In this document: positions 25,767 through 43,941 of the stretch, piece by piece
Numbering within the stretch: the first letter of the stretch is position 1
Layout: every line of letters begins with the position of its first letter
NCBI GenBank assembly: GCA_022072165.1
Contig: JAJVIF010000003.1
Location: 248,001-312,000, forward strand
Direction: 5' to 3'
Source of the DNA: a bacterium
Lineage (GTDB): Bacteria > JAJVIF01
Length of the DNA stretch: 64,000 nt
The notes under the pieces: model-generated
Seen by the model: only the letters and a program-made list of their open reading frames with translations
The model's database searches: none
Told to the model about the DNA's origin: nothing
Made by a program: the position numbers and the translations under genes

Positions 25767-25946
25767 TTACCCGCCCAGGTTGGTGGTGATGTCACCAAAG
25801 ATCGTATTGATCTGCCCTCCAAGGAGGGTCAGCGCTGCCACAGCAACAATCGCCACCAGGGCGATGATGAGGGCGTACTCAGTCAGGCCCTGGCCACGAG
25901 TGGCACGGGCACACCGGGAAGCAGACAAGGCGAGTAGCAGGTGCAT
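25767..25946 (-). CDS. Flp/Fap-type pilin 1
   Basis: A 59-residue pilin. A short leader ends in ATRGQGLTEY, followed by the pilin hydrophobic helix YALIIALVAIVAVAALTLLG and the tail GQINTIFGDITTNLGG. In Flp pilins the prepilin peptidase cuts after a Gly before the Glu-Tyr pair, here probably at or near GQG/LTEY. The leader is more hydrophobic (MHLLLALSAS) and less basic than in the other two copies. GGAG lies upstream of the ATG. It is the third of three tandem pilin genes and directly precedes the TadG-like gene. Confidence 0.9.
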   Translation of the reverse strand: MHLLLALSASRCARATRGQGLTEYALIIALVAIVAVAALTLLGGQINTIFGDITTNLGG

Positions 25947-25999
25947 GACGCGCTCCAGAACTGCAAAACCCAGACTGCAGGAGCCTGGTTTCCGGAACC

Positions 26000-26034
26000 C
26001 GTCGCCCGGGAGCCAGCGGTGCTCCCAGGCGACG
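26000..26034 (-). terminator. strong stem-loop between pilin genes 2 and 1
   Basis: CGTCGCCCGGGAGC (26000-26013) pairs with GCTCCCAGGCGACG (26021-26034) with one internal C-A mismatch and a 7-nt loop. It lies just after the stop of pilin 2 on the minus strand. With no U-tract, it may protect or partially terminate the pilin message. Confidence 0.5.
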
Positions 26035-26048
26035 AGCCGGTGTCACTG

Positions 26049-26222
26049 TTAAGACAGGGCGGTGGTGATGTCGCCGAAGATCGTGTTGATCTGGCCACCC
26101 AGCAGGGTGAGCGCAGCAACCGCGACGATCGCGACCAGGGCGATGATGAGGGCGTACTCAGTCAGGCCCTGTCCCTTGCGGCGGGCGATGAGAGCACTCT
26201 TCAGCGTCGTGAGAGTCGTCAT
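26049..26222 (-). CDS. Flp/Fap-type pilin 2
   Basis: A 57-residue prepilin: basic leader with IARRKGQG, then LTEYALIIALVAIVAV, hydrophobic helix and tail GGQINTIFGDITTALS. It is nearly identical to pilin 3 from the cleavage site on, and its nucleotide sequence there is also highly similar, so the copies are recent duplicates or are kept alike by gene conversion. An AGGAGG Shine-Dalgarno lies 8 nt upstream of the ATG, the strongest in the cluster, suggesting high expression. Confidence 0.93.
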   Translation of the reverse strand: MTTLTTLKSALIARRKGQGLTEYALIIALVAIVAVAALTLLGGQINTIFGDITTALS

Positions 26223-26285
26223 GGGTGAATCCTCCTGACAAATCCCCCAGGGAACGGGCGCGGGGGCACTAGTGGTACCCCGGCC

Positions 26286-26381
26286 GGACAGGCCTTCACG
26301 CCTGTCCCCGGGCCGTCTTCACAACGAAGACGGGGAAGCGAACAGAAGGAGAGCGCCGCGGCGGTCACCGCAGCGCTCTCC
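26286..26381 (-). other. three consecutive stem-loops in the pilin 3 - pilin 2 gap
   Basis: Within 96 bp there are three perfect or near-perfect hairpins: GGACAGGC/GCCTGTCC (26286-26307), CCGTCTTC/GAAGACGG (26313-26333) and GGAGAGCGC/GCGCTCTCC (26348-26381, stem extended by inner pairs). They begin 12 bp after the pilin 3 stop. None has a long U-tract. They may stabilise the pilin 3 mRNA end and reduce read-through into pilin 2. Confidence 0.6.
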
Positions 26382-26392
26382 GCCGGGGTCAT

Positions 26393-26563
26393 TTACGACA
26401 GGGCGGTGGTGATGTCACCGAAGATGGTCGAAATCTGGCCACCCAGCAGGGTGAGCGCAGCGACCGCGACGATCGCGACGAGGGCGATAATGAGCGCGTA
26501 CTCGGTCAGGCCCTGGCCCTTCTTGCGGGGAAGGCGGCTGGCGAGAGTCACGAGGTTAGTCAT
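26393..26563 (-). CDS. Flp/Fap-type pilin 3 (first in the cluster)
   Basis: A 56-residue prepilin with basic leader LPRKKGQG, then LTEYALIIALVAIVAV, hydrophobic helix and tail GGQISTIFGDITTALS. It differs from pilin 2 by one residue (Ser for Asn) after the leader. AAGGAG lies 10 nt upstream of the ATG. It is the promoter-proximal copy, so probably the main pilin. No tadA/B/C, cpaB or prepilin peptidase gene is present here, so the export machinery must be encoded elsewhere. Confidence 0.93.
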   Translation of the reverse strand: MTNLVTLASRLPRKKGQGLTEYALIIALVAIVAVAALTLLGGQISTIFGDITTALS

Positions 26564-27045: not shown

Positions 27046-29277
27046 CTAGCGCGAAGTGGCGCTGGCGACTTCCGGCTGCTCCAGCGACGGTAACGGATCG
27101 CCCTTGACGGTCGCCCGGACCACGGGATGGCCCCGATTGACACGCAGGGTAAAGCGGGGGCGATCCTCCGAGGTCTCTTCCACTTCTTCCAGCAGCCGAA
27201 GTTTCCGGGCCGCGACTACCAGCTCTTCCGCTTCCTGCTCGGTAATCGGGAAGAGAGGGCGACCATAGGTCAGCCCCCGGGAGAGATAACGCTGCGTCAG
27301 GAACTCAGCCCGCTGCTCGATCTCCATCATGGTCCGGACAAACCAGCGGAGCTGCTCTTCGTTGAGGCTCAGGAGGCTCACCAGGGCCTGCTCGGCGAAG
27401 GGCGACACTTTTCCCGGCAGGATGGCAGTCGGCAGGGCTGGCGCGCTGCTGGCGGGGGGCAGTGGCGATTCATCGGGGAGCCAGTAGGTCCCCCCCTCGC
27501 CGCGGATGATCCCCTGCTCCATGGCTGAAAGGAGAAAGGCCTCGAAATTCGGATAGCCGAAGGGTCCCAGGGCGAAATGCGGCATGGTTCGTCGAAAAGC
27601 GCGTTCAATGCGTTCGACTGTCCGGGCGCTGGGATTGTGGGGCAACCCGCGGATCGCGGCAGGCAGGAGGCGCATCGGCTCACGACCAGAGAGGCTGCTG
27701 CCAGGCCGGTCCCGCAAGGGACTGGTGAAGCGGGGGCGCTCGCTGAACGTCGGGCCGCCCAGGTTCGCCGGACGGAGCAGATCGCTGAGGCGGGGAGCGA
27801 AGGCGGAGAAGTCGACCACATCATCGTCGTCATCGGAGTTTTCGGCAGCCGTCGCGCCCTCCCCTCCCCCAGTCACCGGACTTTTCGGCGGGGCCAGGGT
27901 GCGCAGACGGCTCATCCAGGGGGTGCGAGTCCCAGGGGTCGCTTCCGTCTCGGCCGCAGATGATGGGGCCGAGGCGGAAGCGGCCGCCGGAAGATCCGGG
28001 GCCGTTTCTGCAACAGAGTCGAGCGCGACCACGGAGGCCGCCGTCCCAGTGTCGGGACGGCGATCCTCCGCTACTACAGGCGCAGACTCCAGGAGGTCTT
28101 CGGTGGCCGCGACCTTCTTCCGCCCTTTGGTGGCGGTCGTGGTCGTGGCCTTGGCGGTGGTGGTGGTGGCCTTCTTGGCGACGGTCTTCCGGGTCCCCTT
28201 CTTGGGAGGCTCAGGATCGTCATCGCCCTCCGGCGCAGGAGCGGGATTGGCCGCCGCCGCCTTCACCGCACGCTTCCGCGCAGGCTTGGCGACTTCGACC
28301 TCTTCCACGGCTTCCACTTCGTCTTCGAAATCCTCTTCCGGCTCCGGAGAAGGCGCAGCGCGGCCGATGGACCGCTTGCGCGGGGCCAGGGCGACTTCCT
28401 CGCCCCCGGCATCTTCCTGGGCACGGAAGGTGCGGCGGGGGGCATCGGATTCCTGCTGACGGAGGTGATCCACCAGGTCGGGATGCGACTCGATGCCCAG
28501 GGTCAGGTGCCGGAGCGCCTCATCCACCTGACGTCCGCGACTGCGGATGGCGGTGAGGGCTTCGGTGGCCTTGGTGAGCAGGTCGCGCAACACCCGGATT
28601 TCATCGCCGAGATTGCGCCACTCATTCTGGATATCGCGGAGGGCTTCCACCGAGATCTCGGCGGGCCGGTCATCCCAGGGCTCTTCCGGTGTCAGATTGA
28701 ACTGGGTTACCAGATTCCGGAGAACAGCCTGGGTGATCGGGAACGGGTCCCGGGGACGCCAGGCTTCCAGATGCTCAATCAGCTGCTGCTGGTCGGTGAA
28801 GTACCAGACCCAGGAGTGCCGTTCCACTTCCACCGGCTCATCGCTCACGATGAGCAGGCGCGGGAAGACCTGCGGCCGGACATCGAAATGCCACGGATGG
28901 AGCGGATCCTCGAGGGCTGGCAGATTCGCCGCAATCCAGTCCTGGCACTTGTTTGCCGTGTACTGGAGTCCCAGCAACGGATTGGTATCCCCCAGCGAAG
29001 TCTCATAGGGATCCCAGTAGAGTTCCCCATCTTCTTCGGTTTGCATCTCCCACGGCCCATGGGCGGAACCCCGGACAGCGGTATGGAGGTGACAGGTGCC
29101 GACCATAAAAATCGCGCTCTGCTCGCCTGCCAGCCGAAGCACTAATGCTTCGGCCATGCGGGTCGTGCGGGGCACGTTGAAGCCAACGAGTACATGGTAG
29201 TGATCAGGCAACTCACGGAGTGCCTGGGCGGTCAAGGGATCAAGAGCGCTCTCAACCCCTATATGAAAACGGGCCAC
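27046..29277 (-). CDS. NERD-like N-terminus, histone-like linker and LOTUS-like C-terminus
   Basis: A 743-residue soluble protein with three parts. Residues about 1-180 (ESALDPLTAQALRELPDHYHVLVGFNVP, then NPLLGLQYTANKCQDWIAANLP) follow the plan of the NERD nuclease-related domain. The middle (about 240-470) has a coiled-coil stretch, then acidic and Lys/Ala/Thr-rich low complexity (KKATTTTAKATTTTATKG) like bacterial histone-H1 tails. Residues about 560-640 (RTVERIERAFRRTMPHFALGPFGYPNFEAFLLSAMEQGII) resemble an OST-HTH/LOTUS RNA-binding winged helix. I moved the start to GTG at 29277 because GAGGGGG sits six bases upstream. A role on nucleic acid is likely; domain calls are by eye. Confidence 0.65.
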   Translation of the reverse strand: MARFHIGVESALDPLTAQALRELPDHYHVLVGFNVPRTTRMAEALVLRLAGEQSAIFMVGTCHLHTAVRGSAHGPWEMQTEEDGELYWDPYETSLGDTNPLLGLQYTANKCQDWIAANLPALEDPLHPWHFDVRPQVFPRLLIVSDEPVEVERHSWVWYFTDQQQLIEHLEAWRPRDPFPITQAVLRNLVTQFNLTPEEPWDDRPAEISVEALRDIQNEWRNLGDEIRVLRDLLTKATEALTAIRSRGRQVDEALRHLTLGIESHPDLVDHLRQQESDAPRRTFRAQEDAGGEEVALAPRKRSIGRAAPSPEPEEDFEDEVEAVEEVEVAKPARKRAVKAAAANPAPAPEGDDDPEPPKKGTRKTVAKKATTTTAKATTTTATKGRKKVAATEDLLESAPVVAEDRRPDTGTAASVVALDSVAETAPDLPAAASASAPSSAAETEATPGTRTPWMSRLRTLAPPKSPVTGGGEGATAAENSDDDDDVVDFSAFAPRLSDLLRPANLGGPTFSERPRFTSPLRDRPGSSLSGREPMRLLPAAIRGLPHNPSARTVERIERAFRRTMPHFALGPFGYPNFEAFLLSAMEQGIIRGEGGTYWLPDESPLPPASSAPALPTAILPGKVSPFAEQALVSLLSLNEEQLRWFVRTMMEIEQRAEFLTQRYLSRGLTYGRPLFPITEQEAEELVVAARKLRLLEEVEETSEDRPRFTLRVNRGHPVVRATVKGDPLPSLEQPEVASATSR

Positions 29278-29424: not shown

Positions 29425-30507
29425 CTAGATAGCGAATGGCACCAGACGCTTGCCTTCCGACATCAGCCCCAACTCCGGTGCCCGGACCTGGGGTGTATCG
29501 GCAGCCAGCACATGCCCTAAACGCCAAGCCGCGATCCCACACGCCTCGGCCGCCGCGAGGGCAGCCTCTGCATCGGGAGCGCGCAGGGCGAGTATAAACC
29601 CAATGCCCATGTTAAAGGTAGTCCAGCACGTGGCGGCATCGAGCGGCCCCCGCTCCTGCAAGAGCCGGAAGACCGGCGGGAGGTCGGGCCAGGTCTCGAT
29701 GGCGAACGCGACCGGGACCGGGGTCCGGAGCAGATTCAGGAGCCCTTCGCCTGTCATGTGGAAGGCTGCTGATGGCTTGATTTCGCGTCGCCATATTTCC
29801 CGCATAAATCGTACATAAAGGCGGGTAGGCTCCAGCAGTTCAGCCCCCAGGGTGCGCCCCAGTTCAGGAACATGGGTGGTGAGATCCCAGCCATCGCGCA
29901 GCAGGAGCTGCCGGGCCAGCGTGTACCCGTTGCTGTGGAGGCCACTGGCGGCGAGCCCGATGAGCAAATCGCCAGGTGCGAGGTCCTGGCCGATCATGAT
30001 GCGGTCCAGGGGGACCACACCGATGGCCGTCCCGGCGATATCCCAGGCCCCATCGGGGCCGTGGGGCGTGAGGAGCTCCCGGACCTGTGCGACCTCCCCC
30101 CCAGGGATGGCGATGCCCGCTTCTTCCGCACCCCGGACCAGCGATTCCACGAGCCCCTGGAGGGCTGGGGAGTCGAGCCGGTCGATGGCGATGTAATCAA
30201 GGAGGGCGATGGGGTCCGCGCCGACACAGAGGAGGTCATTGACATTCATGGCGATGAGGTCGGTGCCGATGCCGCGGTAGTCGCCGAGTTGCTGGGCAAT
30301 GACGACTTTCGTGCCGACCCCATCCATGGAGACGGCGATGCCGGTGTCTCCGATGGGGAGGACATTGGCGTAGTAGCCGAGGTCCAGCAGGGGACGTCCG
30401 AAGGCCGGGAAGGCGAAGGTCGCCCGAATCCGGTCGGTGAGGGTGGCGAATTCCGGGGCATCGGCGGTCGCCCGGACCCCGGCAGCGGCGTAGGCGTCAG
30501 ATGGCAT
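29425..30507 (-). CDS. purM: phosphoribosylformylglycinamidine cyclo-ligase (PurM)
   Basis: Closes the imidazole ring of AIR in purine synthesis using ATP. The family signatures are present: DAYAAAGV at the N-terminus (the usual is YxxAGVD), SMDGVGTKVVIAQQ, IGTDLIAMNVNDLLCVGADPIALLDYIA, PGGEVAQ, GLAASGLHSNGYTLAR and the C-terminal FNMGIGFILAL. The ATG at 30507 gives 360 residues, the usual size. There is no Shine-Dalgarno; TGTAAT six bases upstream suggests a leaderless message. It is divergent from rsmG and only 65 bp from it, with a parS site on the rsmG start. Confidence 0.95.
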   Translation of the reverse strand: MPSDAYAAAGVRATADAPEFATLTDRIRATFAFPAFGRPLLDLGYYANVLPIGDTGIAVSMDGVGTKVVIAQQLGDYRGIGTDLIAMNVNDLLCVGADPIALLDYIAIDRLDSPALQGLVESLVRGAEEAGIAIPGGEVAQVRELLTPHGPDGAWDIAGTAIGVVPLDRIMIGQDLAPGDLLIGLAASGLHSNGYTLARQLLLRDGWDLTTHVPELGRTLGAELLEPTRLYVRFMREIWRREIKPSAAFHMTGEGLLNLLRTPVPVAFAIETWPDLPPVFRLLQERGPLDAATCWTTFNMGIGFILALRAPDAEAALAAAEACGIAAWRLGHVLAADTPQVRAPELGLMSEGKRLVPFAI

Positions 30508-30572
30508 CGCTCCATTACAGCACAGGTTGCGGGAGCGGGGGGAGTTGCCGTGAGGTTCGGAGTGCCGGTAGG

Positions 30573-31271
30573 ATGTTCCACGTGGAACAGCGACCACGTC
30601 CTTGGGAGCGATCCTTGTCGGCCGCGCCGAGCGTGGCAGACTGGCGCAGCGCGTTCGAAGCGCTTCTCTCCACTTTGGCGCTGGACCTGCCTGAAGAATG
30701 CTGCAGCGCGCTGGTGGCCCACGCCCAGACCCTCTGGCAGTTCAATCCCCGCCTCAATCTCACCAGCCTCACGACCCCGCAGGGGGTAGTCTCTGAATTG
30801 TTCGGGGACTCCCTCCTCGGACTGCGTCTGGCACCGTTGCTCCGCACGACACATCTGGTGGATATCGGGAGCGGGGGAGGGTTCCCAGGCCTGCCGCTGG
30901 CTGTCGCCTGTCCGGAATGGACCTGCGAGCTCCTGGAGCGGAAGAGTTCCATCGCGCTCTATCTGGAGCAGGCGGTGCAGGCAACCGGGGCGGGCAATGT
31001 CACGATCCTGAATGTCAGCCTGGAGGAGTACCCACAACATCGCAGCGACCCGGAGCCGATCTGCTTTACGGCCAAAGCGGTGTTCCACGTGGAACAGTTG
31101 TGCGCCCGGCTGGCGGAATCCGGACGACCCCTGGATCAGGCTTGCTGGTGGGGCTTGCCGGGACTCACGGCGGATCGTCTGCCCCCCCCCTGGCGGATCG
31201 AGACCCAGGAGAGTGCGGTGCTGCCGGGGAGTGATCGACCCACCGCCATCTACCTGCTGACCCAGGCTTAG
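30573..31271 (+). CDS. rsmG: 16S rRNA (guanine527-N7)-methyltransferase (RsmG/GidB)
   Basis: Methylates N7 of G527 in 16S rRNA. In 232 residues it shows NLTSLT, the SAM-binding DIGSGGGFPGLPLAV and LLERKSSIALYLEQA, the standard GidB order. The gene order rsmG-parA-parB is the widespread gidB-parAB arrangement. Two perfect 16-bp parS palindromes lie in the gene, one overlapping the start codon and one internal; in both the DNA palindrome encodes the peptide FHVEQ. The ATG at 30573 is preceded by GGAG at about ten bases. An in-frame alternative at 30501 would overlap the purM start. Confidence 0.93.
   Translation: MFHVEQRPRPWERSLSAAPSVADWRSAFEALLSTLALDLPEECCSALVAHAQTLWQFNPRLNLTSLTTPQGVVSELFGDSLLGLRLAPLLRTTHLVDIGSGGGFPGLPLAVACPEWTCELLERKSSIALYLEQAVQATGAGNVTILNVSLEEYPQHRSDPEPICFTAKAVFHVEQLCARLAESGRPLDQACWWGLPGLTADRLPPPWRIETQESAVLPGSDRPTAIYLLTQA
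30574..30589. promoter_or_regulatory. parS centromere site 1
   Basis: TGTTCCACGTGGAACA is a perfect 16-bp palindrome that matches the ParB-binding parS consensus (TGTTNCACGTGNAACA) at every defined position. It begins on the second base of the rsmG ATG, so a bound ParB would sit on the start of the gene and near the purM promoter. Confidence 0.92.
31081..31096. promoter_or_regulatory. parS centromere site 2
   Basis: A second exact copy of TGTTCCACGTGGAACA, 507 bp from the first and inside the rsmG coding frame (encoding VFHVEQ). It lies 325 bp before parA. Two identical 16-bp palindromes beside parAB leave little doubt that these are ParB-loading sites. Confidence 0.92.
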
Positions 31272-31420
31272 GCAGGCTCCGCGATGGCACATCCAGTGAT
31301 TGCCATCAGCGTAAGCACTCCTTTCCCCAAAGCTGACTGCAATTGGGGAGAGCCAGTACAACTTTCAACGCTCCAGCTATGAGCAATAGCGGAGAACTCC
31401 ACCAGCCACCGGAGCCCCCT

Positions 31421-32221
31421 GTGTCTGCGCGCATCATCGCTGTGTCGAATCAGAAGGGGGGAGTCGGGAAGACCACGTCGGCGGTCTCCCTCGCCACCGC
31501 CCTGGCGGTAGCAGGGCACCGAGTGCTCCTGGTCGACCTCGACCCCCAGGGCCACGCCACTCTCGCGCTGGGTTTCGACAAATCTGCCCTGACCATCTCT
31601 ATCTATGAGGTCCTCGCAGAGGATCTGAGCGCTCAATCGGCAATCGCTCAGTCCCGGGTCCCCCACCTGCAGGTCCTGCCGGCGAATCAACATGCGGCAG
31701 GGCTGGAGCTCCTGCTGGGACAGGTCGAGCAGCGTGAAACGAAGCTCCGGGATGCCCTGGCCCCCCTGCGGGACCGCTATGACTACATCCTCATCGACTG
31801 TCCCCCCTCCCTGGGGCTGCTCACCCTCAATGCCCTGACCGCAGCCCAGTCGGTACTGGTTCCCCTGCAGTGCGAGTTCCTCGCGCTGGAGGGGCTCGCG
31901 CAGCTGATGCAGACCATCCAGTTGGTGCGAGGACGACTGAACCCCGGACTCCGCCTCGAGGGGGTGCTGCTGACCATGTATGACGGCCGGACCAACCTCA
32001 CCCGGGAGATCGAGCGGGAAGTCCGGGCCTACTTTCAGGCCCCGCCATCGGGTCTGGGACTCCCCCGGACCCCGGGGGCGGTCTTTCAGACCGTGATTCC
32101 CCGGTCAGTCCGCCTTGCCGAGGCCCCCAGCCACGGCATCCCTATCTCCGAGTACGACCCCGGCTCCACCGGGGCGCTCGCCTATGCCACTCTCGCACAG
32201 GAGGTGCTGGCCCATGGCTAA
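31421..32221 (+). CDS. parA: chromosome-partitioning ATPase ParA (Soj)
   Basis: A deviant Walker-A ATPase that drives ParB-parS segregation over the nucleoid. Motifs are KGGVGKTTSAVSLA, LLVDLDPQGHATLALG, DYILIDCPPSLGLLTLNAL and the C-terminal VIPRSVRLAEAPSHGIPISEYDP. I place the start at GTG 31421 with GGAG six bases upstream, giving the typical MSARIIAVSNQKGG beginning and 266 residues; an ATG at 31379 and a TTG at 31343 are in frame alternatives. The end overlaps the parB start by 8 bp, so the two are coupled. The 150-bp gap after rsmG holds no other gene. Confidence 0.96.
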   Translation: MSARIIAVSNQKGGVGKTTSAVSLATALAVAGHRVLLVDLDPQGHATLALGFDKSALTISIYEVLAEDLSAQSAIAQSRVPHLQVLPANQHAAGLELLLGQVEQRETKLRDALAPLRDRYDYILIDCPPSLGLLTLNALTAAQSVLVPLQCEFLALEGLAQLMQTIQLVRGRLNPGLRLEGVLLTMYDGRTNLTREIEREVRAYFQAPPSGLGLPRTPGAVFQTVIPRSVRLAEAPSHGIPISEYDPGSTGALAYATLAQEVLAHG

Positions 32222-33131
32222 GCGCCCATCATTGGGACGGGGTCTGGCGGCCCTCCTCCCCGCTGCACCGGTCGTGACCGCCAGCGACATTCAGGAAATC
32301 CCGCTGTCACAGATTTCCTCGAATCCTTATCAGCCCCGGTTGAAGTTTCCCGAGGCCGAACTCGACGAATTAGCGGAAAGCATTGGACGCCACGGGGTCC
32401 TGCAGCCGATCCTCGTGACCCCGACCGCGACCGGCTTTCAGCTGGTGGCCGGGGAACGACGGGTCCTGGCTTCGCGACGCGCCGGGCGGGAGACCATCCC
32501 GGCCCAGATCCGGCAGCTGGATGACCGGACAGTCCTGGCGGTAGCGCTGGTTGAAAATGTCCAGCGGGCGGAACTTGATCCCATAGAGAAGGCGCGGGCC
32601 CTGGCACGCCTGCGGGAAGAGTTCGGCGCCACCCAGGAGGAGCTGGCTCAGGAGATCGGGGTCTCCCGGGCGCAGGTGGCGAATCTGCTGCGGCTGTTAG
32701 CGCTCCCCTCGACGGTCCAGGAGGCCCTGCAGGCCGGGGACCTCTCGCTGGGACATGCCAAGGTCCTCCTCGGTCTGCCAGAAACGGAGCTGCCGCAGTA
32801 CGCCGCCACCGCCATGCGCTTCGGGTGGTCGGTCCGGGAGCTGGAAGAGGGGGTCCGCCAGGGGTGGATCGATGGTCCACCGATGACAGGCACGGAAACC
32901 AGCGAAGACGCGGCGGCAACAAAGACCCCCAGAGCCCCGAAGGCGGTTTCCCCCGCAGACCCGGATATCGTTCGCCTCGAGAAACAGCTGGCGGAGCGGT
33001 TCGGAACGCCCTGCGCGTTGAAGCTGCAGGGGAAGCGGGGCGGCACGCTGAGCTTCCAGATTTACTCGTGGGAAGATGCTGACCGGCTGATTCGACGCCT
33101 CCTGCAGGCCGACGAAAGGGGGAACACATGA
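32214..33131 (+). CDS. parB: chromosome-partitioning protein ParB (Spo0J)
   Basis: A CTP-dependent DNA clamp that loads at parS. In 305 residues it has the N-terminal ParA-activating basic segment (AKRPSLGRGLAALLP), the CTPase region with IPLSQISSNPYQPR, GVLQPILV, GERR and ENVQRAELDPIEKARAL, the helix-turn-helix TQEELAQEIGVSRAQVANLLRLL, and a C-terminal dimer domain. ATG 32214 has AGGAGG upstream within the parA end; the longer frame from 32115 is not used. Its TGA overlaps the ATG of the next gene. Confidence 0.96.
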   Translation: MAKRPSLGRGLAALLPAAPVVTASDIQEIPLSQISSNPYQPRLKFPEAELDELAESIGRHGVLQPILVTPTATGFQLVAGERRVLASRRAGRETIPAQIRQLDDRTVLAVALVENVQRAELDPIEKARALARLREEFGATQEELAQEIGVSRAQVANLLRLLALPSTVQEALQAGDLSLGHAKVLLGLPETELPQYAATAMRFGWSVRELEEGVRQGWIDGPPMTGTETSEDAAATKTPRAPKAVSPADPDIVRLEKQLAERFGTPCALKLQGKRGGTLSFQIYSWEDADRLIRRLLQADERGNT

Positions 33132-34093: not shown

Positions 34094-34359
34094 CGCCGCT
34101 GCCAGGGTCCGGGAATTGTGCACCGGCGGGACAAAATTCATTCTACCCCGGATAGAACGTCCCGGCATCCGGGAGTACACTATCGGTCCGGTGGGAGCCC
34201 ACTCTTCCATCGAGCATCAGGCCCTGTCCGAAGTCGCCAGTCGTGCGGCGGCGTAAGGCAAGTCCGTCCCCAACCCCTGATGCGCCATCGTCCGTGCATG
34301 CCACATCGTCGTCGGTCCGCCGGCCGCCATTGTGCCGGTGCTAAGGGAGGCCAGTCATC
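34094..34359. other. 266-bp intergenic region with a weak hairpin
   Basis: CCCGGAT (34147-34153) pairs with ATCCGGG (34167-34173) past the end of the parAB operon; there is no U-tract. The remainder must contain the promoter for the lipoprotein at 34360, but no clear box was found. No gene is seen. Confidence 0.35.
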
Positions 34360-36771
34360 GTGTCGGGTTTGTGTGTCGCTCCCCTGAAGTTTGGGGTCTG
34401 CTTGCTGTCGTTGCTCATCCTCGCGGGTTGCGCCGGAGGTTCGCCAAACACGGTCCAGCCCAGCGGAATGGAAACCGGCACCGGCGGCCTGGTGCTGCCA
34501 ACTCCGGAGAATCCGATGCTCGGCGCGGCCCTTATGGCCGGGACCCTGCGTGTCGACGCGACATCGCTGACCGCAACGCTGATTCCGGATCATCAGGGCG
34601 CCCTGGATTTTCCACTGGACATCACACCGTACCTGACCATCTCCCCTGGCTTCGACTGCTTTCGGGCGCTGTCGGTGAAGCGTGGCCCTGGAGGCACCAT
34701 TGATCTGGAACTGGGGCTGCGGCATCCGTTTGACCCCGCCCTGCGCCCGGACCTGGATCCCTTTGATCCCCGACTGATCCTGGGGACCGGTGGGGCGACC
34801 CAGTTTGGGCGGTTGCCACTGGGGAAAGATGGCGCAGCGCCTCGCGTGACCCTGCAGGGGGTCCCGAATGCCGATGGCTACACCGGACGGTTTAAAGAGC
34901 TGGTGGGGACGACGCAGGCCGGGACGAAGAACCCCTATATCGATTTCTTCACCGACACCAATCCTGATCCGCTGGTCATTGGCGCGCAGGTGCCGTTTCA
35001 CCGCATGGCTGCTGGTGCCCCGGAAGATCGTCAGATCCTTCGCCTGAATCCGGCGGTGCTGGGGAATGTCATCGAGCTGCGGTGGATCATCGAAGCCGCC
35101 TATGGGCAGTCGGCCACCCGGGCGAACCGCTTCTCGCCGGTCTATCGCAACCCGCAGTTCAACCGCAAGGAGCCGTATGCCGTCCGCGTGCAGGTCGTGT
35201 CGAACACCCTGCAGGAGGGAGAGGTCAACACCGAGGCGACCGTGCTGGTGGAGGTCGAGGACTGGCAGCAGGGTGCGCCGGTGGCGGCGGATCCGGAGAA
35301 TCCTGCTCCGAACGAAGTGGAAGCCTCGAGCGACTTTAGCCGTCTCATCTTCGACCTGCCGGGACTCACGCCGGCCACCATCCAGCGCAACGCTGCCGAA
35401 AGCGGGTCCGGGACTGCGGGCGATCCGTTCCGCTTCACATTCGATATCACCAACGACGGCACTTTCACCGCAGGCTCCTATGCCGGGCTGGTTCTGGTGG
35501 AAGACGAGCTGGATCCCTTTACGGCCGACCTGGAGTACCGGGTCTTCCAGAGCTTCAGCCTGACGGTACTGGAAGAAAATCCACCCCCGCAAAAGGGGAC
35601 CTGGGACTGGAGTGGCGCGACGCAGCAGGTGAGTCAGCAGCCGGGGCTCTCCTACCTTTGGCCCAAAGAAGGCATCGCGATTGACTCGCTGGGACGTTCC
35701 CATGTGGTCTGGACTGATGATTCCAGCGGGAACGATCAGGCGTTTTATGCCCGTCAGACAAGTCCGGGGGCGACGACTTTCACCTCTGCTGAAGCGCTGG
35801 CACCGGCACCTTCGCTCTATCCCACCATCGCCATCGACAGCACCGACCAGGTGCATGTGGTCTGGGAGGATGGCCGGGGACTGGCGAACGGCTCGAACAT
35901 TCGGTATGCCTCGCGTCTCGCCACTGGCAACGTCAATGCCGGTGAGATTCCGCTCACCAGTGTGGCGGAAAATGTCTTTGCGATCTTCCCCAAGGTCGCC
36001 ATTCGGCCAGGGGGCGGCGCACATGTGGTGTGGGCTGAGAATCGCACGGACCCCCAGGTGAATCCCTTTGGAGTCGCGGACTTCGGGGTGTACTACGCCC
36101 AGGTCGATTTGCCATCCATCAACAGTCCGGGGGTCGGCACCGCCGCTGCCGTGATTGATGTGGCGCTGTCGCAGGGCTTTCCGAATCTGGTGGCGGTGGG
36201 CGGGACCGTCCATGTGGCCTATCAGGAAAATGCCCTGAACGGCACCGGTAACCGGCGGGTGTGGCACATCGCGGGAGATGGCGCAACGTTCGGGACACCG
36301 GTCGCGGTGACGAACGCCGGCATCGATGCCGGGCAGCCGGACCTCGATGCCACGAGTCTGGGCGTCCTGTGGCTGGTCTGCTCCCGCGGCGGCGCCAGCG
36401 GTCCGATCCTGCTCACCAGCAGCGACGACAGCGGTGCCACCTGGAACCCCATCACGACATTCTCCGAGGGGGGAACCCCGGGCTACACGCAGTATGGTCC
36501 CGACATCGCTATCGATGTGCAGGACAATCTCCATGTGGTGTGGCATGAGTTCCTGCCAGCCACCCTGGACCTCGGTCGGGTGCAGCAGCGGACGCAGTAC
36601 TTTGATGGCGAGTTGCTGCCGACCCAGTTCGTCACCCCGGCCGGGGAGTTTGCCGGCTGGCCGAGCCTGGCGGTGGCCCCGAATCGCAATCTGGCGGTGG
36701 CGTATCAACGCTGGACTGGCACGGATTACGAGGTCTTCCACCAGGTCGGGGTGTACACGCCGACTCCGTAG
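34360..36771 (+). CDS. modular lipoprotein A: shared N-module plus beta-propeller
   Basis: An 803-residue predicted lipoprotein (GTG start; hydrophobic segment ending in lipobox LILAGC, Cys about 24). Residues about 60-410 form the module shared with the proteins at 36861, 39865 and 54230: FDCFRALSV, LGLRHPF, PNADGY, KNPYIDFF, VEVEDWQQGAP, then a PGL segment and YRVFQSFSLTV. From about 425 on, six repeats of the type (I/V)A(I/V)DxxxxxHVVWxD/E (IAIDSLGRSHVVW, IAIDSTDQVHVVW, VAIRPGGGAHVVW and so on) form a six-bladed sialidase-like propeller. No sialidase catalytic residues are evident. Probably surface exposed; ligand unknown. Confidence 0.82.
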   Translation: MSGLCVAPLKFGVCLLSLLILAGCAGGSPNTVQPSGMETGTGGLVLPTPENPMLGAALMAGTLRVDATSLTATLIPDHQGALDFPLDITPYLTISPGFDCFRALSVKRGPGGTIDLELGLRHPFDPALRPDLDPFDPRLILGTGGATQFGRLPLGKDGAAPRVTLQGVPNADGYTGRFKELVGTTQAGTKNPYIDFFTDTNPDPLVIGAQVPFHRMAAGAPEDRQILRLNPAVLGNVIELRWIIEAAYGQSATRANRFSPVYRNPQFNRKEPYAVRVQVVSNTLQEGEVNTEATVLVEVEDWQQGAPVAADPENPAPNEVEASSDFSRLIFDLPGLTPATIQRNAAESGSGTAGDPFRFTFDITNDGTFTAGSYAGLVLVEDELDPFTADLEYRVFQSFSLTVLEENPPPQKGTWDWSGATQQVSQQPGLSYLWPKEGIAIDSLGRSHVVWTDDSSGNDQAFYARQTSPGATTFTSAEALAPAPSLYPTIAIDSTDQVHVVWEDGRGLANGSNIRYASRLATGNVNAGEIPLTSVAENVFAIFPKVAIRPGGGAHVVWAENRTDPQVNPFGVADFGVYYAQVDLPSINSPGVGTAAAVIDVALSQGFPNLVAVGGTVHVAYQENALNGTGNRRVWHIAGDGATFGTPVAVTNAGIDAGQPDLDATSLGVLWLVCSRGGASGPILLTSSDDSGATWNPITTFSEGGTPGYTQYGPDIAIDVQDNLHVVWHEFLPATLDLGRVQQRTQYFDGELLPTQFVTPAGEFAGWPSLAVAPNRNLAVAYQRWTGTDYEVFHQVGVYTPTP

Positions 36772-36785
36772 GTAACACCTTCTGA

Positions 36786-36852
36786 ACAGGGCGCGATGAC
36801 AGGGTCCAGCCCCATCAACAGGGCGCGATGAATCGCGCCCCTGGCATGTCCC
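36786..36852 (+). repeat. dispersed composite palindromic repeat, copy 1
   Basis: A half unit ACAGGGCGCGATGA at 36786-36799 is followed 32 bp later by a full unit at 36818-36847 whose core GGGCGCGAT-GA-ATCGCGCCC (36821-36840) is a perfect 9-bp hairpin with a 2-nt loop, then CCTGGCATGTCCC-like sequence. The last 36 bases (36817-36852) are identical to those of copy 3. It lies between two convergent lipoprotein genes and may also end their transcripts. Confidence 0.8.
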
Positions 36853-36860
36853 AGAGGGCG

Positions 36861-39653
36861 TCACATGTCCGGGAACGACATCGTGACAGCCGCCATGTCA
36901 TCCGGGGGATACGGCAGCCCGCAGTCGTCGCTGACACTGATGGTGAACTGGTAGGTGTTGCCCCGGGCTGAGGTGGTGACCGTTCCTGAGAGGATCGCGG
37001 TCTGGGGGTTGAACTGGAGTCCAGGCGGCAGGATGCCGTTGCTGACCCACGTGATACTGCCGGTACCAGTCGAAGTCTTGAACTCGTAGCTAAAGGGGAG
37101 ACCGACCTCCGGCAGAGGGGGAGTCCCTTCGGTGATCAGCGGTGTCGCTGGACAGGGGAACTGGATCACCGTTTCCCAGACATCGCGCTGCTCCAGATAG
37201 CAGGTGTCGCGGACTTCCACCTGGAAATACCAGGTGCCGCCTCCGTCCAAAGGATCAGGGAAGAAGCTGATCGTGCCATCCGGAGCAAGGGAGAAATTGC
37301 GCGGCACTGTTTGAGGAGTCAGGAGACTCCAGGTGAGTGTCCCCTGGCCCCCTGTAGCGTTGATTTTCGAGCTGTACTGCTGATTCCAGGAGATGGGAGG
37401 GAGGGGGGTCGGCACGATGACCGGCGGCGGAGCGCACTGGATCGGGAGATAGAGCTGCGCCGTCACCGGCGTACCTGTCGCGCACTGATCAGCGACCCGC
37501 ACCGTAAACGTGATGATGGACCCCTCGGCCGAAGGAAGGGCAGCGCCGCTGAAGCTCCCATTGGATTGCAGGGTGAGTCCTGCGGCGGCCAGTGCTGGTG
37601 CACCGCTGATGACACTCCAGCTGAGCGGCGCTTCACCCACCGCCTGCAAAGGTGCCGGGTGCTGCCCGACTGCGATCGGAGGAATCGTGCTGGTGAGAAT
37701 CTCCAGCGGTGTGCAGGGGATGTCGAGGTCGAAAGTCTTTTGGCTGCTCTGCTGGGAGGGACAGGCATCCCGCACCGTCACCGCGAACGTGTAAGACTGC
37801 CCACTGGCACTGTCGGCAGGGGTGCCACTGATGACACCGGCGGGACTCAGTACCAGCCCTGCAGGCAGGGTACTTCCGGGAGACAGCTGCCAGGTCAGGG
37901 GGAGTCGCCCCCCTTCAGCGGCGAGGGTCTGTATGTACACCACACCCCGTGTTGCCGATGGCAAGGGTGACGGTGTCGTGATCAGCGGATCGGGCTCATC
38001 GCAGAGATCACCGCTGTTGGTCCGGACACGCAGGGTCCAGCCGGCGTTGACCTCGGCTGGCGGATTGCCGCTGTCCCGGACCCGGACGCCGAGGGCGACA
38101 CTGCCGAGAGGTGGTGCGGGTATCCCACTGAGGGTCCCGGTTGACGGATGCAGTTGCAGCCATGACGGGGCCGGTCCGGTCAGGGTGTAGGTGTAGGGCT
38201 TCACGCCGCCAAACGCCTCGAACTGATGCGCGATGGGGACCCCCGTGACCGCTTCCAGGACCAGCACGCCGGGGTCGAGGACCAGGAGAGGTCGCTGGAC
38301 CTCAATGGTCGCGACCTGCCAGGTCCGGACACGTCGTTCCTGCACGATGCTGCTGCGATCCAGCATCAGGGTGCTGTAAGGGTCACGTTGATCCACGACT
38401 GTCACCAGCGCGTGCAGGAGCCCGGCGGGAGGAATGATTTCCGGAGTCAGGGCGATGGTGCGTCGCAAGGGGGTCGTGCCACGGCCGGTCCCCTCAAAAC
38501 CCGTGAAAACCACTTCGCTGTTCAGCATCCCCGGCACTTCCACATAAGCCCGCTGCACCTGGCTGTTGAACGGCACCATATCCCGGGGCGTGGCATCGGG
38601 GGTCCAGGTCGGGTGGATGATCGCCGCCTGCTGCCAGTCCCAGATGTCGAGGGTGAGATCGGTTTTGCGATCCACAGGCGTGAGCAGGAGGGGTGTCGCG
38701 GAGGCCTGGACCCGCCAGGGGGCCAGCAGATTTCCCGCCGGGAGCTGATACACGGGGCGCTGACGTACGGCGGTCCGCAGTAAATCGCCCTCTGCCGGAT
38801 CCGCTCCTGCTTTGTTCATATAGCTGGCGAGGAGAGCGACCTGGAGATTCACGCTGGTGCGGTCTTTGAGGTGAAGCTGGACCTGCAGAATTCGCTCCTC
38901 ACCTTGTCGCAGGCTGTTGAACCCCTGAGCGGTGGTGAGATTGGGGAAACCATTGACGGCCTCGGGGTCGAAGTTGCCGGTGGGGTCAGTCTGCGGTGAG
39001 CGCGAAAAGATGATGTACGGATCCAGTGTCGCGGCATTGGTGAGATCGACTGCTTCAAACCAGGGCTCCAGGAGATCCGTGTAGCCATCGGGGGGGAACT
39101 GCCCGCTGCCCCAGGTCAGGAACCCGGGCTCGAGGCGTTCGCCCGACTGCGGAAAGAGGGTGGTGTATCCGGCATCGGTGCGGTTATGGACCAGGAGCAT
39201 GGCATCGAAGACGTGCAGGTCGAGCCGCTCGCCGGGTCCAAAAGAGCCGGCGCTCGCCGGCAATGGGAAGGGATGTCGTAGCCGGACCGTGGCGGTCAGT
39301 GTTTCGCCCTGGACGCTCAAGCCCTCGATGCGAAAGCAGTCCGCACAGTCGCCCCGGAAAAATGCCGTGGTATCGACCGCGTAGTTCTTGCCATCCCCCA
39401 GCGCTCCCAGCGACCGGGACGGGAGAATCTCGAAAGCGGGCGGATCCAGGGTAGCGCGGACGTCATAGAGCCCCAGGGGGACCGGGGCATCAGTGCCCAG
39501 CGCTGCTCCAATGGAGAGCGCCGGGGTCTGCGACGGCTCAGGTGCAGTCCCGAGGGGGGCAGAGCGAGGTCCGGCACACCCAACCCACAAGATCGCTGCT
39601 GTCAGACAACAGATGACAGACCGGCCTGCGGCCAGATGCTCTTGTATCGCCAT
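36861..39653 (-). CDS. modular lipoprotein B: shared N-module plus five Ig-like domains
   Basis: A 930-residue lipoprotein (lipobox LWVGC, Cys about 26; GGAAGG before the ATG at 39653). The shared N-terminal module shows CADCFRI, RLRHPF, RLDLHVFDAMLLV, DPYIIF and LDIWDWQQAAII, ending at about residue 455 with TWQVATIEV. Then come five consecutive putative immunoglobulin-like (He_PIG) domains of about 85-100 residues, each with the G(L/F)xLxxxGxxSG-type turn (LSGIPAPPLG, ISGTPADSAS, FSGAALPSAE, ISFFPDPLDG, LSGTVTTSAR) and most closing with VxVxDxC. Such domains usually act as stalks or adhesive surfaces. Convergent with lipoprotein A. Confidence 0.82.
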   Translation of the reverse strand: MAIQEHLAAGRSVICCLTAAILWVGCAGPRSAPLGTAPEPSQTPALSIGAALGTDAPVPLGLYDVRATLDPPAFEILPSRSLGALGDGKNYAVDTTAFFRGDCADCFRIEGLSVQGETLTATVRLRHPFPLPASAGSFGPGERLDLHVFDAMLLVHNRTDAGYTTLFPQSGERLEPGFLTWGSGQFPPDGYTDLLEPWFEAVDLTNAATLDPYIIFSRSPQTDPTGNFDPEAVNGFPNLTTAQGFNSLRQGEERILQVQLHLKDRTSVNLQVALLASYMNKAGADPAEGDLLRTAVRQRPVYQLPAGNLLAPWRVQASATPLLLTPVDRKTDLTLDIWDWQQAAIIHPTWTPDATPRDMVPFNSQVQRAYVEVPGMLNSEVVFTGFEGTGRGTTPLRRTIALTPEIIPPAGLLHALVTVVDQRDPYSTLMLDRSSIVQERRVRTWQVATIEVQRPLLVLDPGVLVLEAVTGVPIAHQFEAFGGVKPYTYTLTGPAPSWLQLHPSTGTLSGIPAPPLGSVALGVRVRDSGNPPAEVNAGWTLRVRTNSGDLCDEPDPLITTPSPLPSATRGVVYIQTLAAEGGRLPLTWQLSPGSTLPAGLVLSPAGVISGTPADSASGQSYTFAVTVRDACPSQQSSQKTFDLDIPCTPLEILTSTIPPIAVGQHPAPLQAVGEAPLSWSVISGAPALAAAGLTLQSNGSFSGAALPSAEGSIITFTVRVADQCATGTPVTAQLYLPIQCAPPPVIVPTPLPPISWNQQYSSKINATGGQGTLTWSLLTPQTVPRNFSLAPDGTISFFPDPLDGGGTWYFQVEVRDTCYLEQRDVWETVIQFPCPATPLITEGTPPLPEVGLPFSYEFKTSTGTGSITWVSNGILPPGLQFNPQTAILSGTVTTSARGNTYQFTISVSDDCGLPYPPDDMAAVTMSFPDM

Positions 39654-39814
39654 GTCCGGGTACCTTCCCTGGCTCCGGTGGAATCGTCCCTTTGGCAAAC
39701 AGTCACGCAGGCCAGGCGATCTGTCGACAGACCTGCGCTGATCCCTCAGCGCAGGAGGCAGCCTGTCGACCTGCCTCTTAATACAACTGTATCTGTGTCA
39801 GGAAAAAAGCACAA

Positions 39815-39864: not shown

Positions 39865-42294
39865 CTAGTTCGCGAAGACCAACTGGTTCCCCGGCGCAAC
39901 CGTGGCGTACACCATCGTGTTGTCGGCCCGGTAGCAGGTCATCCCCTCGGCCACAAAGGCCGAGTTGACGTTGTAGGTGTAGAGCAGGTTGACGGTGGAG
40001 GGCGGGACAAACTCGTAGACCGGGATCTGGTGCGGCGGCAGCGGACTGCCGCTCATGGTCCAGGAGAGGTGGATGAAACCATCGCGGTCTACAGCAATGG
40101 CGCAGTTTTGTCCACCACCGGTCAGCTGTGATCCGCCGAAGCCCAAAATCGCTTGCGTATGCGGATTGATGATGGTCCAGGCACGCCCGGCAGTCCGGCT
40201 CCCGGGAGTCGAGAGGTAGAGGAGGTCGCCGACGTTCTCCATGTCATAGGTGGAGGGGAACGGGGTGATGTTCCAGCCGCCAATGGTAGCGCCAGTCGCC
40301 AGATTGAACTGCGTGACGGAGAAGGGGTTGCTCGTGAAGTCGCAGCCCCAGAATGTACCGTCATCCAGGTAGCTAATGGCCTTGGAGGTGAAGAACTGGC
40401 GGTTGGACGCATAAATCACCCCCCCGTTGAGGTCATAGGTAACAGTGTCGTTGGTGGTCAGATCGTAGTCCGCACTCACGGTGACCCGGTTTGTCACTTC
40501 ATGGACGGTGATGCCCCGCATCGGACCCGAGGCAATTTCGGTGAAGCCGACGGTCCAACTGCGTAAAAACGTGCCCGCTGAGGAGTAGACCCGGACTTCG
40601 CGGGTGCTGCCTGTGGAGAGGAAGACTTCCCCAGTTCCCTGATGGCAGTCGAGGCTGGACACCGACGAGAGGCTGGTGCTGCTGACGACTTCTGGCTTCA
40701 CGATGACTTCACAGGTGTTGGTGCTGTCGATGCCGTCCTGCGAGCAGCTCACATAGGTCCGGCCCATGCCGATGCCGGTCCCGACATTCGCGACAAAACT
40801 CATGACATCGGTCATCGACGACTCCCAGGTGGCGGTGGTGGAGATGTCCTCGACGAATGGGGCCTCATCAAAGGTGCCGATGGCGGTAAAGGTAATGGCT
40901 TCCGCCGGTCCCTGAGCAATGATCTGTCGGGTGGCCGGAGTGATATCAATCGAGACCAGCTGGCGGGTCGGGAGATTGGTGCCGACGCTGAAAGTGACGG
41001 CCTGATAGGTGGCGAAGCGGGTGACACTCACCGGGTCGATGGTCGCGCCGGTCTGGCTGGAGAGCGCATCGGTGGCACCGCCCGCGTTGATGCCGGTCTG
41101 TCGGTTGTCACTCACACAAATCAGCGCGACATAGTCACCCTCGCCAGCGCTTAGCTCATTGAAGAGCTGACTGCTGTACGTCAGGGGATCATTCTCCCGG
41201 CCTGTGCCAGAGAGGGGAGCGCCCATGTTCAGGGTCGAGTTGCGGACGCCGGGGGCGACCAGCTCCACCTGGGTCACCTCGCTGGCGCCCCGGATCGCGC
41301 CGATGTTCCCGAGAGCCGGGTCGATCACGCCGCCATGCTGCCAGTCCCAGACCCGGACATCGACGGTCGCGCTGGAGCTGGGGTCGTTCCCGGTCAGGCT
41401 GTTGGTGGCGGTCGGAATCTCCGCTTCCACCCGCCAGGGAGCCTTACTGTTGAATTCGGGGAGGGGATACCGGGGATCCAGCCGCTGAGTGCGTCCGGTG
41501 ACACTCGCGCCATAGGCACAGGTGAAGAGGAAGGTCAGTCGCTGCGGACCATCGGTGGGGAGGATGCCGAGGACGACTTCGCTGGTGACATCAGCCCCCA
41601 TGGGAAAGACGTTGTACCCGGTGGGTGCCTGCAGGTCCGCGAAGCCATTGGGATTCGAGGCGCTCCAGTTGCCGGTGGTGCGGTCTTCGTTGAGCATCAC
41701 ATAGGGCCAGGCGGAGGCGGTGTAGGTGGGGTCGAGACTCTGCACGACACTGGTCAACAGCGGGGAGTACCCGGCAGCGTTGGCCACCAGTCGTGTCGGC
41801 AGGGTCGCGCTGCCGCTGGCGAAGGCGCCGGGGAAATTGCCGAGGTTGCCTGCCACCAGAACTGCCGCATCAAAGACATGCAGATCGAGGCGATTCACCC
41901 CACTGATGGGAAGCTGCGGATTGCCGGGCTGGAAGGGATGCCGGGCGTTGACCTTCAGCACGATCTGGCCATCGCCATTGCGAGTCACACCCGTGACGCC
42001 GAAGCAGTTTTTGCAGGGCGCGCCATCAAGGAAGCCGGTGGCGTTGAGCCAGAAATTGTCGCCGAACGCGGTGGGGACCCTGACCGGATTCGCCTCGGCG
42101 GTGAGCGCGACGGGGTCGATGTCTACAGTTATCGCACCCAGGAGCCCGACATCCGGCGGGAGCACGACAGCAGCCGGGACGCCGGCACCGGGAGCCTGTT
42201 GGGTCGCGGCAGGGTTCGTGGGTGCTCCCCCCTGACAGGCGAGACCGCCGAGAAGATGCAATGTCAGTAAGGCGGCCAGTGAATGCAGGCGCAT
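39865..42294 (-). CDS. modular lipoprotein C: shared N-module plus Ig-like and propeller domains
   Basis: An 809-residue lipoprotein with signal segment LHSLAALLTLHLLGGLAC (lipobox Cys about 20). The shared module is easy to follow: CKNCFGV, NARHPF, RLDLHVFDAAVLV, ANAAGY, WPYVML, VRVWDWQHGGVI, PGVRNSTL, and TYQAVTFSV at about residue 430. A BIG2-like Ig domain follows (IDITPATRQIIAQGPAEAITFTAIG, to about 530), then repeated beta segments resembling an NHL/YVTN-type propeller (for example FLSTGSTREVRVYSSAG). It is preceded by lipoprotein-unrelated nitroreductase on the same strand and ends in a strong terminator. Confidence 0.82.
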   Translation of the reverse strand: MRLHSLAALLTLHLLGGLACQGGAPTNPAATQQAPGAGVPAAVVLPPDVGLLGAITVDIDPVALTAEANPVRVPTAFGDNFWLNATGFLDGAPCKNCFGVTGVTRNGDGQIVLKVNARHPFQPGNPQLPISGVNRLDLHVFDAAVLVAGNLGNFPGAFASGSATLPTRLVANAAGYSPLLTSVVQSLDPTYTASAWPYVMLNEDRTTGNWSASNPNGFADLQAPTGYNVFPMGADVTSEVVLGILPTDGPQRLTFLFTCAYGASVTGRTQRLDPRYPLPEFNSKAPWRVEAEIPTATNSLTGNDPSSSATVDVRVWDWQHGGVIDPALGNIGAIRGASEVTQVELVAPGVRNSTLNMGAPLSGTGRENDPLTYSSQLFNELSAGEGDYVALICVSDNRQTGINAGGATDALSSQTGATIDPVSVTRFATYQAVTFSVGTNLPTRQLVSIDITPATRQIIAQGPAEAITFTAIGTFDEAPFVEDISTTATWESSMTDVMSFVANVGTGIGMGRTYVSCSQDGIDSTNTCEVIVKPEVVSSTSLSSVSSLDCHQGTGEVFLSTGSTREVRVYSSAGTFLRSWTVGFTEIASGPMRGITVHEVTNRVTVSADYDLTTNDTVTYDLNGGVIYASNRQFFTSKAISYLDDGTFWGCDFTSNPFSVTQFNLATGATIGGWNITPFPSTYDMENVGDLLYLSTPGSRTAGRAWTIINPHTQAILGFGGSQLTGGGQNCAIAVDRDGFIHLSWTMSGSPLPPHQIPVYEFVPPSTVNLLYTYNVNSAFVAEGMTCYRADNTMVYATVAPGNQLVFAN

Positions 42295-42372
42295 GAGGAG
42301 ACGTCCTTTGCAGGGTACAGATAGGCCCAAACAGCGGGGAGGTACGCCTCCATTGTAGGTCAGATGCGACCT

Positions 42373-43141: not shown

Positions 43142-43218
43142 GGGCGTATAGCTCAGTTGGTTAGAGCGCGTCCCTGATAAGGACGAGGTCCGTGGTTCAA
43201 GTCCACGTACGCCCACCA
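43142..43218 (+). tRNA. tRNA-Ile (anticodon GAT)
   Basis: A 77-nt cloverleaf: acceptor GGGCGTA pairs with TACGCCC, D arm GCTC/GAGC, anticodon stem CGTCC/GGACG with loop CTGATAA (anticodon GAT), T arm CGTGG/CCACG with loop TTCAAGT, discriminator A and an encoded CCA end. It decodes AUC and AUU. It stands alone; no rRNA genes are adjacent, although tRNA-Ile(GAT) is often inside rRNA operons. Confidence 0.97.
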
Positions 43219-43240
43219 GTGAATTTCAGGTGACTTGTGG

Positions 43241-43268
43241 TTGCGAAACGCGGAATCTCTGCGATACT
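43241..43268 (+). promoter_or_regulatory. candidate sigma70-type promoter for the NYN gene
   Basis: TTGCGA (43241-43246) and GATACT (43263-43268), each four of six matches to consensus, are separated by 16 bp. They lie 113 bp before the GTG at 43381. Support is from base pattern and position only. Confidence 0.35.
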
Positions 43269-43380
43269 AAAAGCGTACACTCTGCTGGATCAGCTGCCCC
43301 GCCCCCCAACCTGAGCCCTTTGGGGCCAATGTCGGAGTCGCGGGCATCGCCCCCGGCAGAGTTTTTGCTATTTTTGACAG

Positions 43381-43941
43381 GTGCCTCCTCGAGTACATGC
43401 GTTCGTTGATGGCCAGAACTTCCTGCGCTCGGTGGAGGAAACTTGGGGATTGTGCGACCTCATCATTGACGTCAGCTTGCTCGCGCAGCAATTGTGCCGG
43501 CAAAGCGAATGGCATCTCGTTCGGTCTACGTTCTATACAGGGGTACCGTCCGAGAGGCATCAAAGACAGGACCGACTCGCGCTAAACCGTTACCTGCAGC
43601 TTCTCGGCTCTCGCGGGGTCCAGATTGAAACCAAACCCCTCCGGTATCTAACTGACAATTCTCAGCGACACCCGAGGGGTCGAGAAAAAGGTATCGATAT
43701 CCAGATCGCGCTCGACATTACTCGCTCAGCATGCCTGGAAGCAGCAGACATTGTTTTGCTCTTTAGCCAGGATCACGACTTTGCAGCGTTGAGCAAGACT
43801 TTGAATGAGATTGGAGTGGAGCGAGGCTCCCCTGTTCAGTTCGCCACAGCGTTCCCCATGGGCTCTAGGTTCAGAGGCATTTCAGGGACGACATGGGTCC
43901 AGTTCTCCAGGCAGCAGATCGATATCGCCATGCTGTCCTAG
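43381..43941 (+). CDS. NYN domain protein (PIN-like RNase)
   Basis: A 186-residue NYN-family protein, a PIN-like fold predicted to cut RNA. Acidic metal-binding positions are visible: VHAFVDGQNF at the N-terminus, a KGIDIQIALDI segment and DIVLLFSQDHDFAALSKTL, the usual D-N...D...SxDxD pattern (here SQDHD). The start is GTG at 43381 with no clear Shine-Dalgarno. Base composition is visibly less GC-rich and codon choice more mixed than in neighbours, and the gene sits just after tRNA-Ile, so recent acquisition is possible. It ends 17 bp from the convergent thymidylyltransferase gene. Confidence 0.82.
   Translation: MPPRVHAFVDGQNFLRSVEETWGLCDLIIDVSLLAQQLCRQSEWHLVRSTFYTGVPSERHQRQDRLALNRYLQLLGSRGVQIETKPLRYLTDNSQRHPRGREKGIDIQIALDITRSACLEAADIVLLFSQDHDFAALSKTLNEIGVERGSPVQFATAFPMGSRFRGISGTTWVQFSRQQIDIAMLS

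Follow-up and report, generated by a model that had tools for sequence, protein, structure and literature searches.

We found that a gene of 743 codons in the window (the whole 64,000-nt stretch of bacterial DNA analyzed in this study) encodes a protein whose residues ~533-600, by sequence profile comparison, are a divergent OST-HTH/LOTUS domain and which lacks a NYN domain. Bacterial LOTUS domains have so far been described almost solely within NYN RNases, and the LOTUS protein without NYN was a single case, represented by one sequence. The reading that we prefer, to which we give slightly less than an even chance, is that the protein acts as a multimeric, non-cleaving RNA-binding adaptor with a new domain architecture. 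If this is true, bacteria would also use LOTUS domains for RNA handling without cutting, and the protein would offer a simple system for asking what a LOTUS domain does alone.

To describe the gene, both its reading frame and its coding statistics were considered. The frame was open from its GTG start to its stop on the minus strand, and its G+C content by codon position (0.71/0.50/0.75) matched that of the neighboring genes. The in-frame codon score also resembled that of the neighbors, and this frame scored best in all four sub-regions of the gene. The open frame and the neighbor-like coding statistics together indicated that the 743-aa gene is real. The genome, which belongs to a sparsely sampled bacterial lineage, comprises 3.26 Mb in 4 contigs and is 99% complete; our sample of the phylum contained three other genomes, each from another family. 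The features of the gene and its product are listed in Table 1.

Table 1. Features of the LOTUS gene and its product, with nucleotide positions counted along the window.
Feature	Residues	Positions	Strand	Basis or remarks
Whole gene	1-743	27046..29277	-	743-aa protein; GTG start; stop at 27046-27048
NERD-like domain (tentative)	8-120	28918..29256	-	hhalign against 19 NERD domains; twilight-zone similarity
Remainder of N-terminal globular region	121-204	28666..28917	-	Secondary structure from a low-confidence model; without match
Probable coiled coil, long helices	205-290	28408..28665	-	Predicted helices 210-263 and 266-289; block pLDDT 50-74
Disordered low-complexity linker	291-520	27718..28407	-	Entropy minimum; no structure predicted
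Basic Lys/Ala/Thr block KKGTRKTVAKKATTTTAKATTTTATKGRKK	359-388	28114..28203	-	11 K/R and zero acidic residues in 30
OST-HTH/LOTUS domain	533-600	27478..27681	-	Custom HMM, hhalign and phmmer; Ghxph motif GYPNF (574-578)
C-terminal region, mostly helical	601-743	27049..27477	-	No family match

The initial annotation had described the C-terminus, including the segment FALGPFGYPNFEAFLLSAMEQGII within residues 533-600, as LOTUS-like, and this was borne out by a LOTUS HMM built from 18 domains cut from the OST-HTH (NYN-LOTUS) proteins of relatives, with the query left out. The C-terminus scored 20.2 bits against this HMM, well above chance, compared with 8.8 bits for the best of 5000 shuffles and 5.7 bits for the next best sequence outside the LOTUS family among ~1680 native ORFs. 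In hhalign, residues 533-600 matched the LOTUS profile with a probability of 95% (E 3.2e-8). When residues 521-743 served as the single query of an unguided phmmer search across 385 genomes, the top foreign match was a NYN-LOTUS protein (E 2.8e-4), and the closest single relative of the domain, which is shared with bacterial NYN-LOTUS proteins (LK-nuclease/DUF88 plus OST-HTH, LabA-like), was the NYN-LOTUS protein L033, with 38% identity across 55 aa. In an alignment with 13 NYN-LOTUS domains, P32, F34, G40 and F44 (numbered along the aligned domain) were invariant, and the Ghxph motif, which defines the OST-HTH/LOTUS family (PMC2848206), was present. Helices were predicted at 533-543, 551-567 and 575-587 in the low-confidence AlphaFold model. 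The stock Pfam scan of the full protein reported no OST-HTH, and stock PF12872 run against the domain alone gave an E of 0.22, which is under the cut-off. Stock profiles thus matched neither end of the protein, which, under the rule set by the initial annotation and taken literally, would have counted as a refutation; for the C-terminus, this rule was too coarse. A match of the locus L130 to the C-terminus was recognized by eye as an AAA+ regulator fragment and was taken as chance. Six NYN-LOTUS proteins (L018, L023, L033, L115, L117 and L120) formed a group with an extra C-terminal helical region of ~130-180 aa; the equivalence of residues 601-743 to the C-terminal extension of some NYN-LOTUS proteins was plausible by eye and was not supported by the profile test.

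A previous study has reported that bacterial OST-HTH domains are almost always fused to an LK/DUF88 nuclease (PMC2848206). In the present study, LOTUS matches were found in 55 other genomes among the 385 searched, using an alignment that contained the query and was therefore circular for the query and used for distribution only. Every readable LOTUS ORF elsewhere (the top loci and 12 weaker matches) carried an N-terminal NYN domain, a count that leaves out ~8 LOTUS matches without a locus; in ORFs flagged as 'noNYN' by a narrow pattern, the NYN motifs were recognized by eye. These results agreed with the reported LK/DUF88 fusion. In contrast, NYN was absent from the protein studied here: Pfam reported none, and a NYN profile gave no match to the N-terminus, which ruled out a hidden NYN domain there. 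The protein's own genome encodes three NYN genes (43381-43941 of the window, G000:C2:401000 and G000:C2:525746), none of which (0/3) has a LOTUS domain, and no second LOTUS protein was found in it. No orthologues were found in the phylum (4 genomes), the 385 relatives, the GTDB contigs (scanned twice, the second time with the N-terminus alone), the viral contigs or the plasmids.

The stand-alone NYN gene that the initial annotation had placed at 43381-43941 is present in the window, and it lies immediately after a tRNA-Ile(GAT) gene (43142-43941 for the pair, plus strand). Genes for tRNAs are usual insertion sites for mobile elements.

The N-terminus had been read as a NERD domain, and here the comparison yielded a weak and reproducible resemblance. 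Scans of the full protein against Pfam, NCBIfam, PADLOC, PHROGs and the PDB returned no significant match, and none at the N-terminus, and PF08378 (NERD) was absent from both the protein and the genome in Pfam searches at E values up to 10. Using an HMM built from 19 NERD domains of relatives, we observed that the N-terminus ranked first among ~1650 non-NERD ORFs, yet it scored no more than 6.3-6.8 bits, roughly what the best shuffle reached. In hhalign, residues 8-120 aligned with NERD end to end (E ~6e-4, probability 28-30%), and the score exceeded those of 300 shuffles and 400 native segments under both models; decoy profiles (NYN, LOTUS and the C-terminal extension) did not match. All true NERD members outscored residues 8-120 in leave-one-out comparisons. 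As a calibration, a Pfam-confirmed NYN protein reached an E of 5e-4 against a small NYN profile, which indicated that a NERD score of a similar level can reflect real homology. The order of conserved blocks also followed that of NERD proteins (PF08378; NERD-helicase and SmdA-type), namely L-P-x-x-Y-x-V-L, hydrophobic strands, G-x-W and N-P, and the YHVL, GPW and NP motifs were retained. Based on these sequence comparisons, we consider the chances that the N-terminal domain is homologous to NERD to be about even. Unlike in NERD proteins, the catalytic residues that the initial annotation had marked for checking were all missing: in the hhalign alignment, D was replaced by L45 and E-x-K by G60-T61-C62. 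Thus the domain, given NERD homology, is likely catalytically dead. In SmdA, several conserved NERD residues are missing from a NERD-like domain that is still needed for function (PMC9040797). The fusion to LOTUS also set the protein apart from NERD proteins, and no paper combining OST-HTH with NERD was found in the literature searched. NERD matches in the class relatives G001 and G003, and the second match in G002, were YraN/UPF0102-like by eye and showed no LOTUS fusion.

Between the two ends, the helix pair at residues 210-289 was the sole part that AlphaFold predicted with any confidence in the two single-sequence models, whose mean pLDDT was 37-38. The linker that follows had been likened to a histone H1 tail. 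The linker was of low complexity, but this comparison was overstated, since residues 291-520 contained 30 K+R against 39 D+E (net -9) and an H1-like composition was confined to residues 359-388. Two NYN-LOTUS proteins of other bacteria (L113 and L124) ended in long Lys/Ala/Pro-rich, histone-H1-like tails, and the combination seemed to recur. The basic tails of these proteins are longer, so the basic tract beside LOTUS is a shared trait rather than one unique to this protein. In addition to the missing NYN and the NERD-like, apparently inactive N-terminus, the long coiled coil, the acidic linker and the extra C-terminal region distinguished the protein from NYN-LOTUS proteins.

The probable multimerizing coil, the disordered linker and the lack of a visible active site made an RNA-binding adaptor the most economical explanation; RNA binding, multimerization and catalytic loss are what we infer for the protein. 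In the proposed mechanism, RNA that is structured or rich in G would be bound by the LOTUS domain. The long disordered linker may aid this binding through its basic Lys/Ala/Thr block, and the coiled coil would provide multivalency. In the part of PMC12247748 that cites Ding et al. 2020, LOTUS domains, including bacterial ones, are described as binding G4 RNA by ELISA. The NERD-like domain, if it is one and has lost its catalytic residues, might offer a site where proteins or nucleic acids dock without being cut. The protein would then take the place of the NYN-LOTUS RNases of other bacteria without a nuclease in the chain, and cutting, if any, would be performed in trans by a partner, conceivably a product of one of the genome's three stand-alone NYN genes.

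A comparable arrangement is found in the eukaryotic LOTUS scaffolds (Oskar, TDRD5/7 and MIP-1/2), which combine LOTUS, disordered regions and a non-LOTUS domain in a nuclease-free chain. The second domain of Oskar is a catalytically inactive hydrolase (PMC2848206), and eukaryotic LOTUS domains bind proteins as well, including the Vasa helicase (PMC5458760). Unlike this likeness in layout, sequence kinship with these scaffolds is not expected beyond LOTUS, and LOTUS falls into separate bacterial and eukaryotic families (PMC2848206). The more specific proposal, in which an inactivated NERD fold replaced NYN and gave a non-cleaving RNP organizer that works in trans with NYN RNases and is convergent with eukaryotic LOTUS granule scaffolds such as Oskar, appears unlikely to hold in full.

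The adaptor reading was weighed against other explanations, most of which turn on the N-terminus. This region might be unrelated to NERD or a new fold, in which case the protein would still be a LOTUS adaptor with another N-terminal partner domain. We regard this as a possibility of some substance, though on the doubtful side: the empty database scans, a custom HMM score close to that of the best shuffle and the uninformative structure models all fit it, while the end-to-end hhalign match over residues 8-120, its margin over shuffled and native segments, the silent decoys and the equally modest E value of a Pfam-confirmed NYN protein argue against it. The N-terminus might instead be an active nuclease whose active site has been rearranged or has migrated; the protein would then be a one-chain RNA-targeting nuclease similar to NYN-LOTUS. 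Active-site residues are known to migrate in PD-(D/E)xK enzymes. The pairing of a nuclease with LOTUS has a precedent in the NYN-LOTUS proteins themselves (PMC2848206). However, none of the three catalytic NERD residues (D, E and K) was retained, and inspection by eye of the expected strand revealed no alternative acidic pair, which makes this reading improbable.

The remaining alternative concerns the C-terminus, which could be a generic DNA-binding winged helix of a nucleoid or chromosome-segregation factor. The basic block in the linker and the rsmG, parA and parB genes, which begin just past a purM-like gene and lie within ~3 kb of the LOTUS gene, would suit such a role. The retained LOTUS-specific P-x-F...G-Y-x-x-F core (Ghxph), the strong and specific match to the LOTUS profile and the net acidic linker speak against it, and we consider this explanation very improbable. 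The non-cleaving RNA-binding adaptor remained our preferred reading among those compared, although several points count against it: the protein is a single sequence, its NERD resemblance falls short of every true member, both structure models are of low confidence, gene order linked no functional partner to it, and LOTUS domains can bind proteins as well as RNA.

In the surrounding DNA, the purM-like gene (29425-30507) precedes the LOTUS gene on the same strand with a gap of 147 bases, and three small Flp-pilin-like ORFs come after it; this gene order linked no functional partner to the LOTUS gene. The rsmG (GidB), ParA-like and ParB-like genes are consecutive on the plus strand (30501-33131), a row that is frequent close to replication origins. 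The Flp-pilin-like ORFs (59, 57 and 56 aa) are arranged in tandem on the minus strand at 25767-26563, have GQGLTEYALIIALVAIVAVAALTLLGGQI in common and lie in a 137-nt repeat whose copies are 76-88% alike. Farther along, an ORF of 945 aa on the minus strand (36861-39698) contains several putative Ig (He_PIG) domains and is flanked by long ORFs without a Pfam match at 34180-36864 and 39865-42330.
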